In this document: positions 16,781-26,426 of the stretch, one piece after another | Position numbering within the stretch: the stretch's first letter is position 1 | Layout of the letters: each line of letters opens with the position of its first letter | Source: Poriferisphaera corsica | GTDB taxonomy: Bacteria > Planctomycetota > Phycisphaerae > Phycisphaerales > Phycisphaeraceae | Reading direction: 5' to 3' | DNA: 64,000 bases | NCBI RefSeq assembly: GCF_007747445.1 | Contig: NZ_CP036425.1 | Span: 4,138,175 to 4,202,174, forward strand | Position numbers and translations under genes: made by a program | Notes under the pieces: generated by a model | The model's database searches: none | Told to the model about the DNA's origin: nothing | What the model saw: the letters and a program-made list of their open reading frames with translations, nothing else

Positions 16781-16814
16781 AAAAAAAGGAGCTTATCAAT
16801 AAGCTCCTTTTTTT
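16781..16814. terminator. Bidirectional rho-independent terminator
   Basis: GGAGCTTAT pairs with ATAAGCTCC over a 2-base loop, flanked by seven A on the left and seven T on the right. It serves the mutase gene on the plus strand and the convergent lipoprotein gene on the minus strand. Confidence 0.92.
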
Positions 16815-17322
16815 AGTGCGGTAGTATTTGCATTTCAGAACTAAAACGCTTGCCTGTATGAGGTGAATATACAACACGCAAAACAGCCCCCTGCTGAGCG
16901 ATTTGCTGATCATGCATTTTTAATTGAAAAAGATAGCCTCGAGATATCGGATCGTAATGCTGCCTTTGTGATTCTAGTGTCAGCAATTCTGCATTCCATG
17001 TATACAACTGCGTGCCTGCTCCGCCGCTTGTTGAACTAACTGCCTCAAGTAACTCAAAAGCAAACATCCCAGCACCTTTTACAGAATCGCCCATCTCGTC
17101 AAATAGCTCAACGCGCGTTTCCAAAACAATCTGATTCTCTGATTTCCGAAAACGGGTCGATGGATATATGCGAATGGCAACTGGCTTAGATTGCCAAACA
17201 AAACTTTCATCTGAACGATTATCTAATGCTGTATTAGTATTGTCTGTACCTTTATTCACACAACCTAAAGACATCAATATCAATATAGCAAGGCACGAGT
17301 ATTTAGCTGAAGCGATGTTCAT
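16813..17322 (-). CDS. Putative lipoprotein at the end of the capsid module
   Basis: The 169-residue product starts with a lipoprotein signal: hydrophobic stretch then LMSLGC, with the lipidated cysteine near residue 21, followed by an Asn/Thr/Asp-rich linker. The rest is beta-rich (IRIYPSTRFRK, VLETRVELFDEMGDSVKGAGMF) and I do not recognise a family. I used the ATG at 17322; a GTG at 17328 is also in frame. It lies 130 bases downstream of the holin-like gene in the same direction, so it may be the last gene of that module or an unrelated host gene. Confidence 0.65.
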   Translation of the reverse strand: MNIASAKYSCLAILILMSLGCVNKGTDNTNTALDNRSDESFVWQSKPVAIRIYPSTRFRKSENQIVLETRVELFDEMGDSVKGAGMFAFELLEAVSSTSGGAGTQLYTWNAELLTLESQRQHYDPISRGYLFQLKMHDQQIAQQGAVLRVVYSPHTGKRFSSEMQILPH

Positions 17323-17458
17323 GATCACAAAATAATCCTATTATGAATTCAGATCAAGCGTGGTGCAATATTCAGTCGAAATAAAACAATTTTCGTGCAA
17401 TACGTCGTATATTCCAATCAACACATGACGCGTTATCCAACAATGACTATCAACTGAG

Positions 17459-17728
17459 CTAATTGCCTTTATCTGACAATAATTCTGAAACGCTGCTTAG
17501 TGAACGACATAATTGCTGTTGTGTATGATCAAATTTAACGAGAGCTTCAGTATTTTTTTCCAATAAATCCACCAGAATGTTGATCTCTGTTTTTTGATCC
17601 ACAATTTGCCGGTGTGTTTGCGACAACATTTTCGCATAATCTCGCGAAAGATATCTTTCCCAAATCCAAAGCACTCCCATTAATCCAGCCACACCAAATT
17701 GTACGAGATACTTTACGATCTCAGACAT
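17459..17728 (-). CDS. Small membrane protein with coiled coil, holin-like
   Basis: The 89-residue product has one N-terminal membrane helix (about 5-24, YLVQFGVAGLMGVLWIWERY) followed by a charged helical tail with heptad spacing (about 30-85). Phage holin-like proteins of the BhlA/UviB kind have this topology, but so do other small membrane proteins, so the role is an inference from the capsid-gene context. It begins 10 bases after the connector-like gene ends. Confidence 0.6.
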   Translation of the reverse strand: MSEIVKYLVQFGVAGLMGVLWIWERYLSRDYAKMLSQTHRQIVDQKTEINILVDLLEKNTEALVKFDHTQQQLCRSLSSVSELLSDKGN

Positions 17729-17738
17729 GTTAGTATCC

Positions 17739-18365
17739 CTATGTGCGCGTTAGTTGAGCTGTACTTCCAGACATAACAGGTAAACCATCCGAACGATTCG
17801 TCGTATGGATGATATCCAACGCCTTTAACACCTGTTGCTGATAATACAAACATTTTTCATACAGCGTTTTATATCTCTCTGTTTGAGACAGCAATAGATT
17901 CTGAAATATCTTTTCCAATGCGATGTAAGCAATTATTCTTTTGAATTTAATAATATTCTCTGTATCCGTTGATATCATGAGATTATCAAAATCCTCAGAC
18001 TTTATTTGCAGTAGACATCGTAATTCTTCGTGAGCTAAAGCTATCTGTGGTTCATATGTTATCACACTAAATTTTGTATCCAAATCATAACGAACCTCTA
18101 TTGGATCATCTTCAATACGACTTCGTAAGAATGACAATCTTATCCGGTGATCATCAACAACTTCAATAATCTCGAGAGGAACAAGTCCTAATGTTACAAC
18201 ACTACCGATACCAATGTTCCTTGCTGAGAAATCAACTGCCTGCGTATAAATATTATTATTTGAAAAAGAGCAAGGCGTATCTTTGACCAGTATTTGTGGT
18301 GTGATCATCGTATCAATAAATAAACTTGGCTCATATACAAGTAAATCTCTATCTTTTAAGTACAT
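17739..18365 (-). CDS. Unknown protein in capsid module, connector-like position
   Basis: The 208-residue product is mixed beta then alpha: an N-terminal half with short strands (PQILVKDTPCSF, VVTLGLVPLEIIEVVDDHRIRLSF) and a helical C-terminal half (YIALEKIFQNLLLSQTERYKTLYEKC). I do not recognise it by sequence. It follows the major capsid gene, the place where tailed phages encode head-tail connector proteins, and the helical half would suit such an adaptor. A terminator-like hairpin separates it from the capsid gene, so it is probably made in lower amounts. Confidence 0.7.
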   Translation of the reverse strand: MYLKDRDLLVYEPSLFIDTMITPQILVKDTPCSFSNNNIYTQAVDFSARNIGIGSVVTLGLVPLEIIEVVDDHRIRLSFLRSRIEDDPIEVRYDLDTKFSVITYEPQIALAHEELRCLLQIKSEDFDNLMISTDTENIIKFKRIIAYIALEKIFQNLLLSQTERYKTLYEKCLYYQQQVLKALDIIHTTNRSDGLPVMSGSTAQLTRT

Positions 18366-18375
18366 TGTCGTATCC

Positions 18376-18406
18376 TAAAAAGGGTGAGGCATAAAAGCCT
18401 CACCCT
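18376..18406 (-). terminator. Intra-operon terminator/attenuator behind the capsid gene
   Basis: AGGGTGAGGC pairs perfectly with GCCTCACCCT (10 bp, 6-base loop) and the minus strand continues TTTTTAGG. It sits between the capsid stop codon at 18418 and the connector-like start at 18365. It would let most transcripts end after the capsid gene. Confidence 0.88.
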
Positions 18407-18417
18407 ATAAGTATCGT

Positions 18418-19545
18418 TTAATCAATCGCCAAATTTGTCAATAATCCATGTGCATTTTCGTTGCGTAACTCAAGTGTATACTCCCCAATCAATTGGCCAC
18501 TTTCATAATCGCCTTGTGATGCCAATGGTTTATAGTGAAAGCTTCGGCCACTCATTGGTACCACAGCAACTCTTGATGAATCCAACATCAAAGCTGAATT
18601 CCGTGGCACCCATCTTGACATGATGACACGGCAAATACCAAAATCGGATTCATAAACACCGACATAATCTGAAAACTTCGTTTCATTCGCGCCATAACCA
18701 CGACCTTCGCTAACAAAGCGATTGATCATCCGCTTCTGAAAACCGTTTACAACAATGGTATCCACATTACCCGCAGATTGTTCCCAGATTACCCTTAACG
18801 CTTCATTCAGGCGGCTTTCTGTCAATTGGCTATCTTCGACATCAAACACATTTGTTTTCAATGCTGGAATAATACCCTGCATGGTACGCCTAATCGTACT
18901 ACTACCTTGTGGCGATGCTTGAGCTGCGATCCCATTAATCACACTATTTTCCAAGTCACGCATCATTTCACGCAAACGCTCTTGTTTTTGATAATCAAGT
19001 TCATCCGTAATGCCAACGGTATTACATGCAAGATGCGATCCTGAAACTTCTACGGCAGCAGTAAAAATTTGCGTAAAGTTTGTTTTTCTTATACGGTTAA
19101 CATTCAATGAACTTGGAGCATCTTCACCTTCAAGAGCGGCGCTACCAATTTTCAGAAGCTTTGTATTCTGGACGTATGGGGCAGATAAAGAGCCGCCATA
19201 TCCACGCGCAACAGTGATTGTTGATGATGATTTATTCTGTACCATCATCACTTCTTGACTGTCTTGCGCTCGCAGCAAATCACCTATTCGAAATACCTGA
19301 ACATCCTCGACATCAATTTGGGTCGCACTATCATTTACCGCTGTTGATATCTTCGTCGAGTATGACCGTAGTTCATCTTCCAGCCATTCATGAATGGTAC
19401 TCGTTGCGACTTGTTTCGAATCGCCTAAATAATTTAGTAGTGCGGTTTCGTAAGGACTAACGATCGAAACAACATCCGAAATATCTTCTGCAATTTCCGG
19501 GAGCTGAGCCCCTGCAGAAAAAGTTGCTTTACCTGTAAATGCCAT
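18418..19545 (-). CDS. Phage-type major capsid protein (SU10/DUF5309 family)
   Basis: The 375-residue protein matches the SU10-type major capsid family (DUF5309), an HK97-fold group: an N-terminal segment with SPYETALLNYLGDSKQVATSTIHEWLEDEL, then AVEVSGSHLACNTVGITDELDYQKQERLREMMRDLENSVING and a C-terminal GICRVIMSRWVPRNSALMLD. These proteins assemble the icosahedral shell. The ATG at 19545 has GGAG seven bases upstream and overlaps the end of the scaffold-like gene region. The frame is intact with no sign of decay. It is preceded by scaffold-like and portal genes and followed by an attenuator. No terminase or tail gene is present. Confidence 0.88.
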   Translation of the reverse strand: MAFTGKATFSAGAQLPEIAEDISDVVSIVSPYETALLNYLGDSKQVATSTIHEWLEDELRSYSTKISTAVNDSATQIDVEDVQVFRIGDLLRAQDSQEVMMVQNKSSSTITVARGYGGSLSAPYVQNTKLLKIGSAALEGEDAPSSLNVNRIRKTNFTQIFTAAVEVSGSHLACNTVGITDELDYQKQERLREMMRDLENSVINGIAAQASPQGSSTIRRTMQGIIPALKTNVFDVEDSQLTESRLNEALRVIWEQSAGNVDTIVVNGFQKRMINRFVSEGRGYGANETKFSDYVGVYESDFGICRVIMSRWVPRNSALMLDSSRVAVVPMSGRSFHYKPLASQGDYESGQLIGEYTLELRNENAHGLLTNLAID

Positions 19546-19556
19546 GATTATCTCCA

Positions 19557-20060
19557 TTAAATTTTTGTTCGTTTAATACGCAAATAGCGTAAAAGATCAC
19601 TCCGACGGCCTGTCTGTATCGCTTCTGTCGCAGCATTTGATACATCTCTATCTGTGTCTATTTGATCGCTAGGAGCCATCATCCTTGCCACTGAACCCTG
19701 ACTGCTTTTAAATAGATATGGCTTTGATTCTTTTAAATCATTAACCACCATTTCAATATCTGGATCGTCCATAGATTCAACAGAAACTTCAGTGAGTAAT
19801 CTTGCTGCCTCAATATCAACTGCACGTTCATCCATCAGTAATGCATCAATTCGTTGCCGACGTTCCAGATGAGATACCGTCTTCCGCGTATCCTCTAATT
19901 CTCCATTTAACTGCTCCACCTTCTGAGCCATATCTTCCAATGATTTCTCGGCTGCCTGAGCCCGCTTGCGATATCTAATCGCCTCTGTTACTGCTATTTT
20001 TTTTTCTTCTGTCTTAGTTTCTTGGTCTTGTGTTTCAGTCTTTATATCCATATCTTTCAT
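19557..20060 (-). CDS. Scaffold-like coiled-coil protein
   Basis: The 167-residue product is highly charged and helical, with an N-terminal acidic tail (MDIKTETQDQETKTEEKK) and a long heptad-like segment at about 25-75 (AEKSLEDMAQKVEQLNGELE). The C-terminus is basic (GRRSDLLRYLRIKRTKI). Capsid scaffolding proteins commonly look like this: a long coiled coil and a basic C-terminal capsid-binding end. Its place between portal and capsid genes is also the usual one for a scaffold. The call rests on shape and position rather than a family match. It starts 12 bases after the portal gene. Confidence 0.75.
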   Translation of the reverse strand: MKDMDIKTETQDQETKTEEKKIAVTEAIRYRKRAQAAEKSLEDMAQKVEQLNGELEDTRKTVSHLERRQRIDALLMDERAVDIEAARLLTEVSVESMDDPDIEMVVNDLKESKPYLFKSSQGSVARMMAPSDQIDTDRDVSNAATEAIQTGRRSDLLRYLRIKRTKI

Positions 20061-20072
20061 CTTTCTTATTTA

Positions 20073-21467
20073 TTACTTAGCTGCAATCTGATCAATCTCG
20101 CTGTAGCCTAATTCTGCCAATACCTGCTTCTGAGCCACACCTATTTTCAACTTTCGCTCCGCATTAATCAGACTTTGTGTTTCACCTGTTGGCATAGGTT
20201 CTGGCCAATCAATTCGCACTAACCTCTCTGCCGAATTTGTTTTGAATACACCCAAAACATGTGCTGTTTCTAAGATCAAACGACACATCCGAATCAACCC
20301 ATCGCCGTAGTTCACGCGCTTTTTTTCAGTTTTAGCTAACAAGCCCATCATCACAATACGCAATGCATTTTCACTGGTTAGATTACCGATTCGATCACGT
20401 ACCAAACCTGTCACCAAGGGACTAATCCCGCTGGCCTTATCCATAGCTTCTCGAATCTCTGCAATATGAGCGTCTTCAGATGGTGAATGACTATCACCAC
20501 CGAATTCTTCGATCGATGCACCTTCGTTATTTGTTGACCACATCTGGCCTGGACCGACTGGGCGATCAATAAACCCATCGATTCCCTTACCCAAATACAT
20601 CTTGAAAGCTTGAAATGTTACGCGATTGGCTCGATCAGACAATCTTGTATTCAGTTCATCCTGCAAGTTTATTAACGGCTCAACCTCGCTCAACCCCTCG
20701 TAGTAGTATGGCTGAGTTAAATTTTGTATATGAACAATTGGGATCTCACCAATAATGTTTATCTGAGATTCAATTACATTGCTATGCTTTTGATTTTTAG
20801 AATTTTTTGCATAAACACATTTTTCTGGTGTCCAAACATATGTATGCGTAACATCACTACGATCTTTATTTGCGAGCGGAATCATTCGCCACAAACGCTT
20901 CTTACATTGTCCCGCGTTTGAGGTACCTTGCTTCCAATGAATGATGTACCCATTGAGCTTTCGATAATCATGGGCATTTAACACTGGCACAGCTCTGGAG
21001 GCTTCAACAACCTCAAGCAAAATGCGCTTACCTGAATCAGCGTGCACTAAAACATCAACGTATCCATAAATCGCACCCAGTAATGCCAAATTCTGATAAA
21101 ATCCCATACCACCATTTGCTTTAATAACATCTCGTAGAAATGCTTCTATCTCATTCGCCCTCTGTGGATCGGAGGCGAGGCTTTGTATCGTGACAGGTTT
21201 TGAGAACATGAAATCAACCATGGCATGCACACGCCACGCAATATCGTTCTCAATGACAATCTCTTTACACTCCCCGGAATCATTTCGCCTTAGCAGACGA
21301 TCCGGCAGTCCAGACTTCTGATTTCCATCACCATATCTATTTCGATAGTAGCCCCATAACTTCCTATAGAATGGCAACTTCTCAACTTGATATTCATCAA
21401 TATAAGACTGAAGATCAACGATTCCTAAACCTGCAGCTACACTTTGATTTTCGCTGTCTTTTGCCAT
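20073..21467 (-). CDS. Phage-type portal protein (SPP1 gp6-like)
   Basis: The 464-residue protein matches the SPP1 gp6-type portal family: N-terminal YIDEYQVEKLPFYRKLWGYY, the early IVIENDIAWRVHAMVDFMFSKPV segment, a central GEIPIVHIQN, then LSEVEPLINLQDELNTRLSDRANRV and a helical C-terminus with SGISPLVTGLVRDRIGNLTSENALRI. Portals form the dodecameric ring through which DNA enters the head. I took the ATG at 21467, with AGAGGA upstream. It is the first gene of the module; in phages the terminase would come before it, but here the upstream position is occupied by a divergent regulator. Intact, with no stops or frameshifts. Confidence 0.88.
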   Translation of the reverse strand: MAKDSENQSVAAGLGIVDLQSYIDEYQVEKLPFYRKLWGYYRNRYGDGNQKSGLPDRLLRRNDSGECKEIVIENDIAWRVHAMVDFMFSKPVTIQSLASDPQRANEIEAFLRDVIKANGGMGFYQNLALLGAIYGYVDVLVHADSGKRILLEVVEASRAVPVLNAHDYRKLNGYIIHWKQGTSNAGQCKKRLWRMIPLANKDRSDVTHTYVWTPEKCVYAKNSKNQKHSNVIESQINIIGEIPIVHIQNLTQPYYYEGLSEVEPLINLQDELNTRLSDRANRVTFQAFKMYLGKGIDGFIDRPVGPGQMWSTNNEGASIEEFGGDSHSPSEDAHIAEIREAMDKASGISPLVTGLVRDRIGNLTSENALRIVMMGLLAKTEKKRVNYGDGLIRMCRLILETAHVLGVFKTNSAERLVRIDWPEPMPTGETQSLINAERKLKIGVAQKQVLAELGYSEIDQIAAK

Positions 21468-21732
21468 CACATTCCTCTCGCCTGACTTTGGATCCTCAAT
21501 TCACACTTCAGAAAGCGTTTTATTAACTTGCGAGAAGCGCTTTTGTGCGCATTTTTCTAGCAACATCCCCTGTACCTTCTTTTATATCTGTCAAACAGAC
21601 CTTGATTTATGTGATTTGTCTCTTTTAGCATCTAATGTTTGGTTTTAGTTAGTGTTTTGCGCACGGATTTTCTATAGATAACGACCTGCATTCGCTTGAT
21701 TTATCTCCAATTGATGTTTTAATAGTCAATCT
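21468..21732. promoter_or_regulatory. Divergent promoter region, capsid module / sigma-54 activator
   Basis: AT-rich region of about 265 bases between the portal gene (minus) and the activator gene (plus). It must hold both promoters. I looked for a sigma-54 site (GG-N10-GC) toward the portal gene; the nearest candidate on the minus strand (GGTACAGGGGATGTTGCT) has three bases too many between GG and GC, so I do not call one. Confidence 0.5.
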
Positions 21733-23328
21733 ATGAGTAGCAATGACCAAGAATTAGTCACATTGACTGAAATCACTCAAATTTTAAGTGATGGACTAGA
21801 ATTGAAGCAGGTTTTCCAGCGAGCTATCGCGTTACTCTCCGATAGGCTGCACATACATCGAGCCTCACTTGTTCTATTAGACAACTCGACAAACCAGCTA
21901 AATATCTTCGCTTCGGTCGGCTTAACGGCTGAAGAACAACGTCGAGGACAATACGCTGTCGGAGAAGGTGTCACCGGGCAGGTACTCGCAAGCGGCCAAA
22001 TCGCCATCATTCAAGATATTTCCAAACACCCAGACTTCCTCGACAGAACCGGCAGCCGCACAAACAGTACCAACTCAGACGAAATCATCTCATTCATCTG
22101 CTTACCTATAAAAGATGGCAACGACTATGTCGGTACGATGAGTATTGATATTCCCTACCAAACAGAGAAGATACTCGAACAAACGACACAGCTACTGAAT
22201 GTAATCGCTGGAATGTTCTCACAGACGATCCGCATACACCACCTTGTTCAACTCGAAAAAGAACAATGGGCAACCGAAAACAAACAGCTACGCGATAGCC
22301 TTCACAGTAAATACAGGTTTGGCAATATCATCGGCTCCAGCCCAGCGATGCTAGATGTACTCGCAACAATTGGACAAGTTTCATCATCACGCGCAACTGT
22401 TCTCCTTCTCGGTGAAACCGGCTGCGGCAAAGAGCTAATCGCCAAAGCAATTCATTACAACTCACCACGTAAAGACGAACCCTTGATCCGCGTTAATTGT
22501 GGCGCACTATCACCACAACTCTTAGAATCCGAATTGTACGGCCATATCAAAGGTGCATTCACCGGAGCGGTACGTGACAAAATTGGCCGCTTCGAGGCTG
22601 CAAACGGTGGCACAATCTTTCTTGATGAAATTGGCACACTCGACGCTCAGATGCAAGTCAAACTCCTGCGTGTACTACAAGAACGCGAACTAGAAAAAGT
22701 AGGTGACCACAAAACCATCAAGATCGATGTTCGCGTCATAGCCGCAACGAATCTGGATCTAGAAGAAGAAGTACGCAAAGGCAATTTCCGTGAAGATCTT
22801 TATTACCGCCTCAATGTCGTTACCGTCAGTCTCCCTCCTCTACGTAACAGACGTGATGATATACCAAAACTCATTGACCACTTCCTCGATACCTACAACA
22901 AAGAGAACAATCGTAATCTCTCCCGTATGAATCGTGATGTCCTGAACACATTACTACGATACCCATGGCCTGGAAACGTACGTGAACTTGAGAATGCTAT
23001 CGAACGAGCGACTGTTCTTTCTTCCAGTGATGAATTCACACTCGAATTACTACCGCTACAAATACGAATGTACGCACAGCAAACTCGAGGCGAAAGCTCA
23101 AACGAATCTGTAGAAGCACTTGCCTCTAAACTCGCAGAGCTAGGTATCAAACAATACAGTATTTATGAAGGCCAAATTTACGACTTAGTTGTCCATGAGG
23201 TCGAGAAACAACTTATCCGTGAAGCCCTCGGATACAATGATGGGACCAAAACGCGCACCGCGGATTTTCTTGGCATCAATCGCAATACACTCAACAAAAA
23301 AGTCAAAGACTTTAACATCACCAATTAA
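21733..23328 (+). CDS. GAF-AAA+-Fis sigma-54-dependent transcriptional activator
   Basis: The 531-residue regulator has a GAF sensor domain (about 20-165), a sigma-54 AAA+ domain (about 195-430) with Walker A GETGCGKE at 227-234, the sigma-54-contacting GAFTGA at 274-279 and RYPWPGNVRELENAIERA, and a C-terminal Fis-type HTH (about 490-525, TRTADFLGINRNTLNKK). The NifA-like order means it probably senses a small ligand or redox signal through GAF, not phosphorylation. It activates sigma-54 promoters by ATP hydrolysis. It is divergent from the capsid module with a shared 265-base intergenic region, so the module is a candidate target. No receiver or kinase partner is adjacent. Confidence 0.92.
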   Translation: MSSNDQELVTLTEITQILSDGLELKQVFQRAIALLSDRLHIHRASLVLLDNSTNQLNIFASVGLTAEEQRRGQYAVGEGVTGQVLASGQIAIIQDISKHPDFLDRTGSRTNSTNSDEIISFICLPIKDGNDYVGTMSIDIPYQTEKILEQTTQLLNVIAGMFSQTIRIHHLVQLEKEQWATENKQLRDSLHSKYRFGNIIGSSPAMLDVLATIGQVSSSRATVLLLGETGCGKELIAKAIHYNSPRKDEPLIRVNCGALSPQLLESELYGHIKGAFTGAVRDKIGRFEAANGGTIFLDEIGTLDAQMQVKLLRVLQERELEKVGDHKTIKIDVRVIAATNLDLEEEVRKGNFREDLYYRLNVVTVSLPPLRNRRDDIPKLIDHFLDTYNKENNRNLSRMNRDVLNTLLRYPWPGNVRELENAIERATVLSSSDEFTLELLPLQIRMYAQQTRGESSNESVEALASKLAELGIKQYSIYEGQIYDLVVHEVEKQLIREALGYNDGTKTRTADFLGINRNTLNKKVKDFNITN

Positions 23329-24883: not shown

Positions 24884-25307
24884 ACCTCATTCTTATATAT
24901 AGATTACGGAGCTTTTCACTGCACATCCTCGCAGCGTGCATTAACACGATCACCAACCGCCAGATACCACCTGCATCATATATATCTCGTCTATTCCATT
25001 ACCCCCAATCAAATCATTTCAATGCGTTACACCCCGAAATATCTCAACCTACCTACATATTTCTCTTGCGAATCACTTCTCCACCAGCGATACTCATTTG
25101 TTCCTCTGCAGGCCAACGCAGCACCTACCACTTTGATAAAAGTCACAAAAACACTTAAACTCAATTAAAATAATGATTTGCATCAACGCTGTAGGCAAAA
25201 TCATTTGACAACCCCCCCTGCCAAATGATAGTCTGCAAGGGTAAACCAAAACTGGATTTACATTCACGATGCCCTCCTCCTTCAGTAGATTTTCGGAGAG
25301 TTTAAGA
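24884..25307. other. Intergenic, promoters of divergent pepA and exported protein
   Basis: About 420 bases, AT-rich. No gene, repeat or clear hairpin was recognised. Confidence 0.5.
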
Positions 25308-26426
25308 ATGAGACGACTTCGTCCATTGGTTGGGGCCATGGCCATAACTGCAGCCGGGTTCTTTGGGTCTCTACCCACCCCGACTCTCGCACAAAGCGAT
25401 CAGCCTGCCCCACGTATCATCCAAAGTATTCAAACCGCCGACGCACCTATGCCTGCCGACGGCTTGCAAGCTATCAATGCTTTCAACGATTACTGGGTTA
25501 TGCAACTCGCCAGCGGCGATGAAGCCCAGATCGCAAAAGCACGTAAAGAGCTCAAGCAGATTGTCTCTCCATCTGGTTCTTCGAAAGAATTCGTCAAACA
25601 ATTCAACCACAACCTTTTGGCGAAACTCGCTCAGGTCATTCAAAAACCAAATATTCCCAGCGATTCTAGCGCAGATGAAAAAGCGCAGATTGAGAATAAC
25701 TTTCTTCTCACACGCATCAACGCCATGATCGTGCTCGTCAACACCGAAGGTGCTGGTATTGAACCTGTCCTTGCCATCGGACTCAATGACGAAAATCCTG
25801 GCGTACGATATTGGGCCTCAAAAGCTGTCTCAAAGATCGCACAGTACAAACGTCTGACCAAAGAAGAGCAGGCACCAGTACTTAAACTCTTAGAACAGGC
25901 ACTTGGACGCGAAACACAGTCCGCAGCTCTCACAGAGCAACTTGCCGCACTCAGTAATATGAATGTCGGTACCGCTCGTGGAATCCTCCTAAATGTCCTC
26001 ACAGCTCGTGTTGGCGTTCATGCAAAAGATATTTACGCATCCTACAGCCCTGAGCAAAAAGCTCTGCAGGAAATGTTCACCAAGCTCATTGCTGATATTG
26101 CACGTAACGGCATCGACTCTGATCAAATCAAATCATTTACCAGTGTCGCCTTCCGTTATATGACTCTAGCAACCGATCAACTCCTCACTGATACGGCATT
26201 CACAAATGAAACTATTGCGGATAAACGTACAATTATCCGCCTAGGCGATCGAATCATGCGATTTGCTCATGAGAATATCGATCCCGGTGCCCGTTCACCT
26301 GAGAAAATCGATAACGCTCTCAGTCTTGGCGACTGGGCATTCATCAAGACCAAGGTCAATGATTGGAATAAGATTCTCACAAAATCTCCATTTAATATTC
26401 CTGAAGATGAACTCCAAACCAAGTAA
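25308..26426 (+). CDS. Exported alpha-helical repeat protein, unknown function
   Basis: The 372-residue product begins with a signal peptide (MRRLRPLVGAMAITAAGFFG, cleavage near TLAQ). The mature part is all-alpha; the segment EPVLAIGLNDENPGVRYWASKAVSKIA looks like a HEAT-type repeat, with further helical pairs after it. I do not recognise a named family. It is probably periplasmic and may be a protein-binding scaffold. The start at 25308 has CGGAGAG upstream and removes a 13-residue extension with no ribosome site. It stands alone and has a strong terminator. Confidence 0.8.
   Translation: MRRLRPLVGAMAITAAGFFGSLPTPTLAQSDQPAPRIIQSIQTADAPMPADGLQAINAFNDYWVMQLASGDEAQIAKARKELKQIVSPSGSSKEFVKQFNHNLLAKLAQVIQKPNIPSDSSADEKAQIENNFLLTRINAMIVLVNTEGAGIEPVLAIGLNDENPGVRYWASKAVSKIAQYKRLTKEEQAPVLKLLEQALGRETQSAALTEQLAALSNMNVGTARGILLNVLTARVGVHAKDIYASYSPEQKALQEMFTKLIADIARNGIDSDQIKSFTSVAFRYMTLATDQLLTDTAFTNETIADKRTIIRLGDRIMRFAHENIDPGARSPEKIDNALSLGDWAFIKTKVNDWNKILTKSPFNIPEDELQTK

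Follow-up and report, generated by a model that had tools for sequence, protein, structure and literature searches.

A head-gene operon in Poriferisphaera corsica is probably part of a domesticated, dispersed DNA-packaging system resembling gene-transfer agents

We analysed a 64,000-nucleotide stretch of the Poriferisphaera corsica chromosome (the window; G000:C1:4138175-4202174, part of one 4,291,168-bp contig), which carries an operon of phage-type head genes at positions 16813-21470. This operon probably supplies the head of a DNA-packaging viriform that resembles gene-transfer agents (GTAs), has been domesticated, is inherited vertically, lies dispersed over the chromosome and has repeatedly lost its tail. 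A whole-genome search located an intact large terminase (TerL) of 566 aa at C1:4220925-4222622, ~61 kb past the portal gene, and the capsid and TerL families occur together across the class Phycisphaerae. An earlier note on this DNA had proposed a domesticated head module and, among other roles, part of a split GTA. Both proposals are supported by a mostly single-copy gene family, conserved chromosomal synteny, a vertical signal in the TerL tree, purifying selection and the co-distributed terminase operon at another locus.

The head operon

The operon comprises six complete open reading frames, all on the minus strand and without premature stops. This bears out the intact, stop-free head operon of the earlier note and adds a sixth gene (171 aa). 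From 5' to 3' on the minus strand, the order is portal, scaffold-like protein, SU10-type capsid, adaptor, transmembrane (TM)/coiled-coil protein and lipoprotein-like protein.

20073..21470, minus strand: portal protein, 465 aa (P0001); PF05133 1e-24, phrog_64 1.4e-26
19557..20060, minus strand: scaffold-like protein, 167 aa (P0002); PF06810 1.3e-7, phrog_194 7.8e-8
18418..19557, minus strand: SU10-type (HK97-fold) major capsid protein, 379 aa (P0003); PF17236 (SU10_MCP) 4.7e-86, phrog_1328 5e-83
17739..18365, minus strand: putative head-to-tail adaptor, 208 aa (P0004); AF2 model and VIA-align
17459..17728, minus strand: 89-aa protein with one TM-like stretch followed by a coiled coil (P0005); direct reading of the sequence
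16813..17328, minus strand: 171-aa lipoprotein-like protein (P0006), last gene of the operon; lipoprotein-like by eye

The PHROGs labels concurred with Pfam on the portal, major head and scaffold proteins. The scaffold match to PF06810 scored 32.1 bits, under the Pfam cut-off of 35, and relatives of P0002 sit directly before the capsid gene in the compared relative loci. The capsid showed at least 95% conservation at 120 of its 379 positions in an alignment of 40 sequences, its own included. Against solved capsids, its profile matched 9ny2 (1.4e-34), VP1 9in6 (3.9e-20) and SU10 7z45 (3e-12). The same kind of solved-structure search returned nothing for the portal, nothing useful for P0004 and one weak match for TerL.

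The case that P0004 is the head-to-tail adaptor is good but short of proof, and comes from structural modelling. Its AF2 model (pLDDT 86) aligned in VIA-align with the neck of phage 812 (Z 10.3) and with tail chains of SU10 (Z 8.9, 8.4 and 8.3), values that barely exceed the tool's caution level of 8; we take these SU10 chains to be that phage's adaptor. All of the top ten rows were phage neck or tail chains. The connector-like label of the earlier note finds support in this neck/tail match, but P0004 gave no convincing sequence match and a plain Foldseek search of its AF2 model nothing significant. The holin-like label for P0005 is unsupported, since no lysis family in Pfam or PHROGs matched it. 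From its TM-like stretch and coiled coil we infer a possible membrane or release role; its relatives lie at the 3' side of the head module whether a tail block is present or not. Homologues of P0006 in relatives hold the equivalent position, adjoining a phosphohexomutase gene.

A separate packaging locus

The earlier note had called the head genes a stand-alone module lacking terminase, tail and integrase. Pfam and family searches of five neighbouring genes indeed found no terminase, tail, integrase or replication gene; at the scale of the genome, the words stand-alone and without terminase are wrong, as a co-distributed TerL operon lies elsewhere, 64 kb from the head genes when measured start to start. 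The search for terL at other loci that the note had recommended thus succeeded. Its suggestion that the remainder of the system could sit at another locus was right for the terminase; for the tail, no locus was found with the families searched.

What we take to be the Walker A Lys-Thr and Walker B Asp-Glu of TerL were present in all 42 sequences aligned, its own included. The presumed nuclease aspartates (396, 458, 540 and 544) were found in 41 of the 42, the remaining row being a gap. Upstream of TerL, the packaging operon here carries intact HTH-like (helix-turn-helix), ABC-type ATPase, GNAT-like, ParB-like and small-terminase-like genes. The HTH and GNAT Pfam matches fell under their cut-offs, as did ParB in the own-genome copy. 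By tblastn, genes T2 (HTH-like), T3 (ATPase) and T5 (GNAT-like) occurred in 17 of 21 TerL loci, the one described here included, the small-terminase-like gene in 12 and the ParB-like gene in nine.

A divergent relative of S24/CI-type repressors was detected by tblastn in 10 of the 21 TerL loci (L095, L096, L097, L098, L102, L103, L104, L110, L113 and L114), a family assignment made by scanning the L102 copy alone; none was found in the packaging stretch of the P. corsica genome. Its presence suggests that the packaging operon may be under damage-linked control. Two further weak terminase matches in this genome were rejected, the one at 1.25 Mb being a NERD-domain helicase-like protein and the one at 1.27 Mb part of an ordinary prophage.

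Co-occurrence and spacing across the class

The capsid family PF17236 was found in 130 of 298 genomes of the class and TerL in 157, of which 149 were retained after the rows of eight genomes (E 1.5e-8 to 6e-4) were removed before counting. Capsid and TerL occurred together in 122 genomes, capsid alone in eight, TerL alone in 27 and neither in 141 (Fisher p 1.7e-45, without correction for kinship). Of the eight genomes with the capsid alone, five are less than 80% complete. The portal was likewise present in 130 of the 298, together with the capsid in 122 of the 130. A single capsid match was seen in 118 of the 130 capsid genomes; in 10 of the other 12 the extra matches are pieces, and G096 and G107 carry additional, more distant capsids. 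The module is not a universal trait of the class but a patchy one. A phylum-wide sample of 294 genomes yielded 20 strong TerL matches, every one in this class, and 18 further matches outside it that reached 2e-10 at best. A scan of genome contigs returned a single relative (51%).

In eight single-contig genomes, the capsid and TerL genes lie 64, 41, 129, 982, 688, 10.7, 168 and 67 kb apart, start to start; the 688- and 10.7-kb spacings occur within one genus. The single-contig genome G167 was excluded from this set, its capsid gene being interrupted.

Inheritance, selection and synteny

We built trees for 27 genomes holding both capsid and TerL and compared them with taxonomic groups rather than with a host-gene tree; family labels (f1, f2, f3, f4, f10, f17, f19) are tool codes. 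In the TerL tree, families f1, f2, f3 and f17 each formed one starred clade, the order label required one change and f19 two. In the capsid tree, f17 and f19 were single, f2 and f3 required two changes each, f1 three and the order label three.

The ratio of nonsynonymous to synonymous substitution (dN/dS; NG86, close relatives) was 0.09-0.25 for the capsid, a check called for in the earlier note, 0.09-0.26 for the portal and 0.09-0.41 for TerL, where one pair was saturated. All three genes are under purifying selection in the close relatives examined.

The flanks named in the earlier note, a glmM-type mutase and a divergent sigma-54 activator, were both confirmed. The former is a phosphohexomutase gene (PF02878-PF02880) on the 3' side; the latter reads away from the portal gene.

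21733..23328, plus strand: divergent GAF-AAA-Fis sigma-54 activator (P0007); PF00158 3.7e-71

Synteny among relatives, which the note had also proposed to compare, was examined at 14 own-family loci (the window, L038-L040 and L210-L219) drawn from the 27 capsid genomes of the family. The activator lies divergently beside the portal in 11 of the 14; of the other three, two showed none and in one its place falls beyond the contig end. In all eight loci with a long enough stretch, the lipoprotein-like gene is followed by the phosphohexomutase gene. At L210 (G570:C1:2322001-2342000), an equivalent tail-less head operon occupies the equivalent chromosomal site.

A tail-like block present in relatives

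At the equivalent site, relatives carry a tail-like block of 6-8 kb between the adaptor and the membrane/coiled-coil gene. Of 19 head loci in the initial comparison, nine had it: gene calls, whose starts are approximate, showed it in eight, and L038 was recognised by its F8 match, the remaining gene content of this locus having been read by tblastn. The block consists of the conserved genes F11, F9, F7, F5, F17 and F8. F11 matched PF07157 barely over the cut-off and a baseplate-hub PHROG (one copy scanned), and F5 bears a Laminin_G_3 lectin domain. F8 is tentatively a tail hub-like protein: the top ten VIA-align rows for its AF2 model (pLDDT 65) were all phage or contractile-injection tail proteins, at Z 5.0-6.7, under the tool's caution level of 8, and Foldseek was not significant.

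F8 was found in 56 of the 130 capsid genomes and not found in 74, that of P. corsica among these. For this count, the rows of 30 of 91 genomes were removed, mostly partial model matches inside proteins of ~700 aa or longer; three of them (G035, G075 and G183) carry the capsid, which gives a lenient count of 59 of 130. None of the 27 listed f2 genomes has F8; this count covers listed members, with 148 non-matching genomes of the draw falling outside the list and the listed same-order genomes without a match all being f4. Within the family of P. corsica, nine of 14 loci have the block and five lack it at the equivalent site, and the state differs even inside one genus (G586 with, G583 without). 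Tail presence or absence requires at least four changes on the TerL tree of 27 genomes, and change counts cannot separate loss from gain.

In the P. corsica genome, searches with F7, F8 and a tape-measure family revealed no tail locus, no general tail-family search having been made. The tape-measure family gave only a sub-threshold match, inside an ordinary prophage. The nozzle family PF17212 matched nowhere, controls included, and is hence uninformative. Common ancestry of P5 with F15 and of P6 with F10, the TM and lipoprotein-like genes of other families, was considered and received no support from hhalign. The tail-less module appears to remain useful, because f2 and f17 pairs without F8 show a capsid dN/dS of 0.09-0.25.

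Comparison with known systems

SU10 and related short-tailed phages share with the module the capsid family PF17236 and an adaptor-like fold. SU10 is a virus with one contiguous genome, whereas the loci of the module are split and no replication gene lies among the scanned neighbours. Capsid-forming phage-inducible chromosomal islands (PICIs) likewise have head and terminase without tail genes; they are compact mobile islands with an integrase, whereas the module is dispersed and tracks host families. Encapsulins resemble it as host-kept HK97-fold capsid proteins, and their systems are not known to include a portal, adaptor or terminase. The nearest phage capsid in a phage-collection search was 32% identical (Sporosarcina phage Lietuvens), and the nearest phage TerL matches were 21-30% identical over 33-73% of the query.

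RcGTA and its relatives (Rhodogtaviriformidae) are, according to PMC9662315, caudoviricete-derived genes at separate loci, vertically inherited and with TerL kept, as in the module. The module differs in its phylum, its SU10-type capsid and the tail block not found here; its packaging and transfer are predicted, and the likeness to RcGTA is one of organisation. The same source presents BaGTA (Bartonella) and BhGTA (Brachyspira) as independent exaptations of phages into host-encoded particles. Their particles are experimentally established, whereas those of the module are predicted, and their host phyla differ; here too the likeness is one of description.

Viriform GTAs are characterised there by caudoviricete-derived proteins, full endogenisation (often at multiple loci) and mostly vertical inheritance, and further by a head too small for their own genome, the packaging of random host DNA and its delivery to other cells. 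In the module, the portal, SU10-type capsid and TerL families and the adaptor fold are caudoviricete-derived. The genes are endogenised at multiple loci, 64 kb apart here and 10.7-982 kb apart in eight genomes. Descent is mostly vertical and co-diversifying, judging from the TerL tree against taxonomic groups and the confinement of strong TerL matches to the class. As for head size, spans of 0.69 Mb (G063) and 0.98 Mb (G018) seem over any head's capacity, while 64 kb and 10.7 kb (G069) do not. We call the module GTA-like, not a GTA, because three of the six features are present, the spans bearing on head size point both ways, and packaging and delivery are predictions.

In the proposed mechanism, a regulatory or stress signal would lead to expression of both loci. 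The capsid would assemble on the portal and scaffold, TerL would pack chromosomal DNA through the portal and the adaptor would close the neck, with the membrane (P0005) and lipoprotein-like (P0006) genes perhaps aiding release. In relatives with the full set, the small tail/baseplate-like block with its lectin domain would deliver the DNA. In P. corsica and many relatives, where this block was not found, the particle would most likely be a head filled with DNA and lacking a tail, or else one with an unrecognised or borrowed tail. A bolder version, which we put forward tentatively and rate somewhat short of even, is that many members of the class carry an ancient, domesticated head for packaging DNA from which the tail was lost several times and which selection has kept; it would be a new way of exporting or exchanging DNA in capsids that needs no phage tail, and parasitic elements would attack it by integrating into the capsid gene. 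Particles might, for example, be freed in vesicles or by lysis and enter a recipient through uptake machinery of its own.

If hosts do maintain this packaging system, it would represent one more independent exaptation and might give Planctomycetota a means of exchanging genes. Tail loss under purifying selection also poses the question of what role a DNA-packing head without a tail would have. In the open-licence PMC literature, most of it surveyed by title listing, we found no description of a Planctomycetota GTA. The nearest was a remark in PMC7947584 that, in the planctomycete Zavarzinella formosa, the TerL of one predicted prophage lies near the RcGTA group. Poriferisphaera is available in culture, as P. 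corsica KS4T and strain ZRK32. PMC10945688 reports hexagonal particles released by Poriferisphaera ZRK32 under nitrate or ammonium, with the host not killed, and a 21.9-kb extrachromosomal phage in the same strain. The Poriferisphaera phage ZRK32 record, which is partial and unverified, contained no module proteins.

Alternative explanations

A variant of the GTA-like reading holds that the GTA is complete, with tail genes that lie at a third locus and are too divergent to recognise, so that the particle would be tailed here too. Known GTAs are spread across several loci, RcGTA over five (PMC9662315), and the module has retained its adaptor. Given that F8 (class-wide, this genome included) and F7 (in this genome) were not found, and that the sole tape-measure-like match is sub-threshold and lies in an ordinary prophage, we regard this variant as unlikely while giving it appreciable weight. 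Improbable is a head-encoding phage satellite that borrows the tails of a helper prophage, as capsid-forming PICIs do. Such a satellite could well consist of head, adaptor and terminase genes with no tail genes, and the genome does hold an ordinary prophage. A satellite is a compact island with integrase and replication genes, however; here neither kind of gene lies among the scanned neighbours, the head and TerL genes are 10.7-982 kb apart in eight genomes, the TerL tree tracks host families and synteny within the family is fixed.

The earlier note had also considered a capsid-like compartment or a defence or competition particle, which would not package DNA. The head is retained where the tail block has been lost, and the HK97 fold is common to encapsulins (PMC8346489). 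An encapsulin-type compartment has a cargo enzyme and no packaging machinery, whereas Pfam and PHROGs matched no enzyme family in the operon, and capsid, portal and TerL are co-distributed. An empty compartment is unlikely because portal, adaptor and full-motif terminase are all retained, and we rate this whole group of readings without DNA packaging as very unlikely. We give the least credence, very little in all, to an ordinary or decaying prophage. Caudoviricete genes, the repressor relative that reads away from the packaging genes at 10 of the 21 TerL loci and decay in G053 would agree with one. Against it stand a capsid that matches just once in most genomes (118 of 130), purifying selection and separate loci, as well as host-gene flanks and a TerL ~61 kb off where an intact prophage would have contiguous structural, lysis, replication and integration genes; no integrase lies among the scanned neighbours. 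The genome's own prophage also looks different: the ordinary-looking L117-L118 (G000:C1 ~1.255-1.289 Mb) is contiguous, with a GpA-type terminase, a lambda-type portal and a protease-capsid fusion, all distinct from those of the module, and a tape-measure-like gene below cut-off.

Several observations weigh against the GTA-like packaging system that we prefer. The capsid has a patchy distribution, occurring in 130 of the 298 genomes of the class and in 27 of the 51 of the P. corsica family, and 27 genomes have a TerL relative without a capsid of PF17236. Neither F8 nor F7 was found in this genome, and the small-terminase-like gene is identified by its position only. The capsid tree is weakly supported and incompletely congruent with host groups, and f19 needs two changes in the TerL tree. 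The particles, packaged DNA and transfer are predictions. Premature stops in relatives' copies, which the earlier note would have counted against domestication, occur once each in the capsid match of G270 and the TerL matches of G053, G093 and G128, while the head genes and TerL are intact here.

Capsid genes also seem to have been exchanged with phages, because the phage-like IMG/VR contigs L121 and L122 carry capsids 57% and 51% identical; no module portal or adaptor occurred in the 18 of 41 kb (L121) and 17 of 62 kb (L122) covered. The IMG/VR scan with the capsid alignment gave 87 matches, of which 80 were kept, 76 below 40% identity and four at 40% or above; besides L121 and L122, L123 resembles a module with its tail that comes from a chromosome and was catalogued as viral, and L124 has a capsid at 40%. 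In other viral-contig scans, a single capsid query found one distant match and the TerL alignment one at 34%.

At L224 (G053), the module is apparently decaying: only the first 45 capsid residues were found and the TerL match contains one TAA, with the portal and tail-hub-like genes still open. Portal matches often carried one flagged stop, most commonly in family f10. In the three that were read (G145, G056 and G229), the ORFs are full length with the usual C-terminus, and the flag is the natural stop.

An element inside the capsid gene

Fifteen genomes with a split, truncated or missing capsid were examined for insertions. In six of them (G581, G167, G001, G066, G206 and G596), a large serine recombinase gene lies within the capsid gene.

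L219:3835-16573, capsid gene interrupted, serine recombinase inside
L220:4068-16812, capsid gene interrupted, serine recombinase inside
L221:6537-14582, capsid gene interrupted, serine recombinase inside
L222:7137-16524, capsid gene interrupted, serine recombinase inside
L223:3495-15545, capsid gene interrupted, serine recombinase inside
L226:9036-10894, capsid gene interrupted, serine recombinase inside

The insertion is near capsid residue 60-64 in five cases and near residue 324 in one, and the four inserts that could be spanned measure ~7 to 11.5 kb. At L222, a rearrangement additionally splits the portal gene. The elements of G581, G167, G066 and G206 encode a protease-capsid fusion of another family (PF25209 by Pfam in three, tblastn in G066) and an AAA_25 primase-helicase-like protein (tblastn in three, Pfam in G206). 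In the remaining genomes, the capsid stops at a contig edge or no recombinase was seen. As a control, 60 stretches whose capsids had been picked without regard to breaks were examined, 31 being shorter than 6 kb, and none contained the recombinase. The element resembles a capsid-bearing satellite that would use the capsid gene of the module as its integration site.

Other features of the window

The gene-by-gene annotation covered the operon and five neighbours. One of the latter, at 25269-26426, matched no family, and the 64-kb window holds no tRNA genes. From the position of the activator P0007 we infer that it may control the operon. No sigma-54 promoter-like site with two or fewer mismatches was found in the gap between activator and portal, and the whole window contained 28 such matches, fewer than the shuffle mean of 37. 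Between P0006 and the convergent phosphohexomutase gene, a terminator-like structure was read by eye.

16783..16815, no strand assigned: inverted repeat with T-run, resembling a bidirectional terminator

The GC skew flips from plus to minus around 17 kb, where the head operon has its 3' edge, and reverts around 49 kb, which could reflect gene strand or an inversion.

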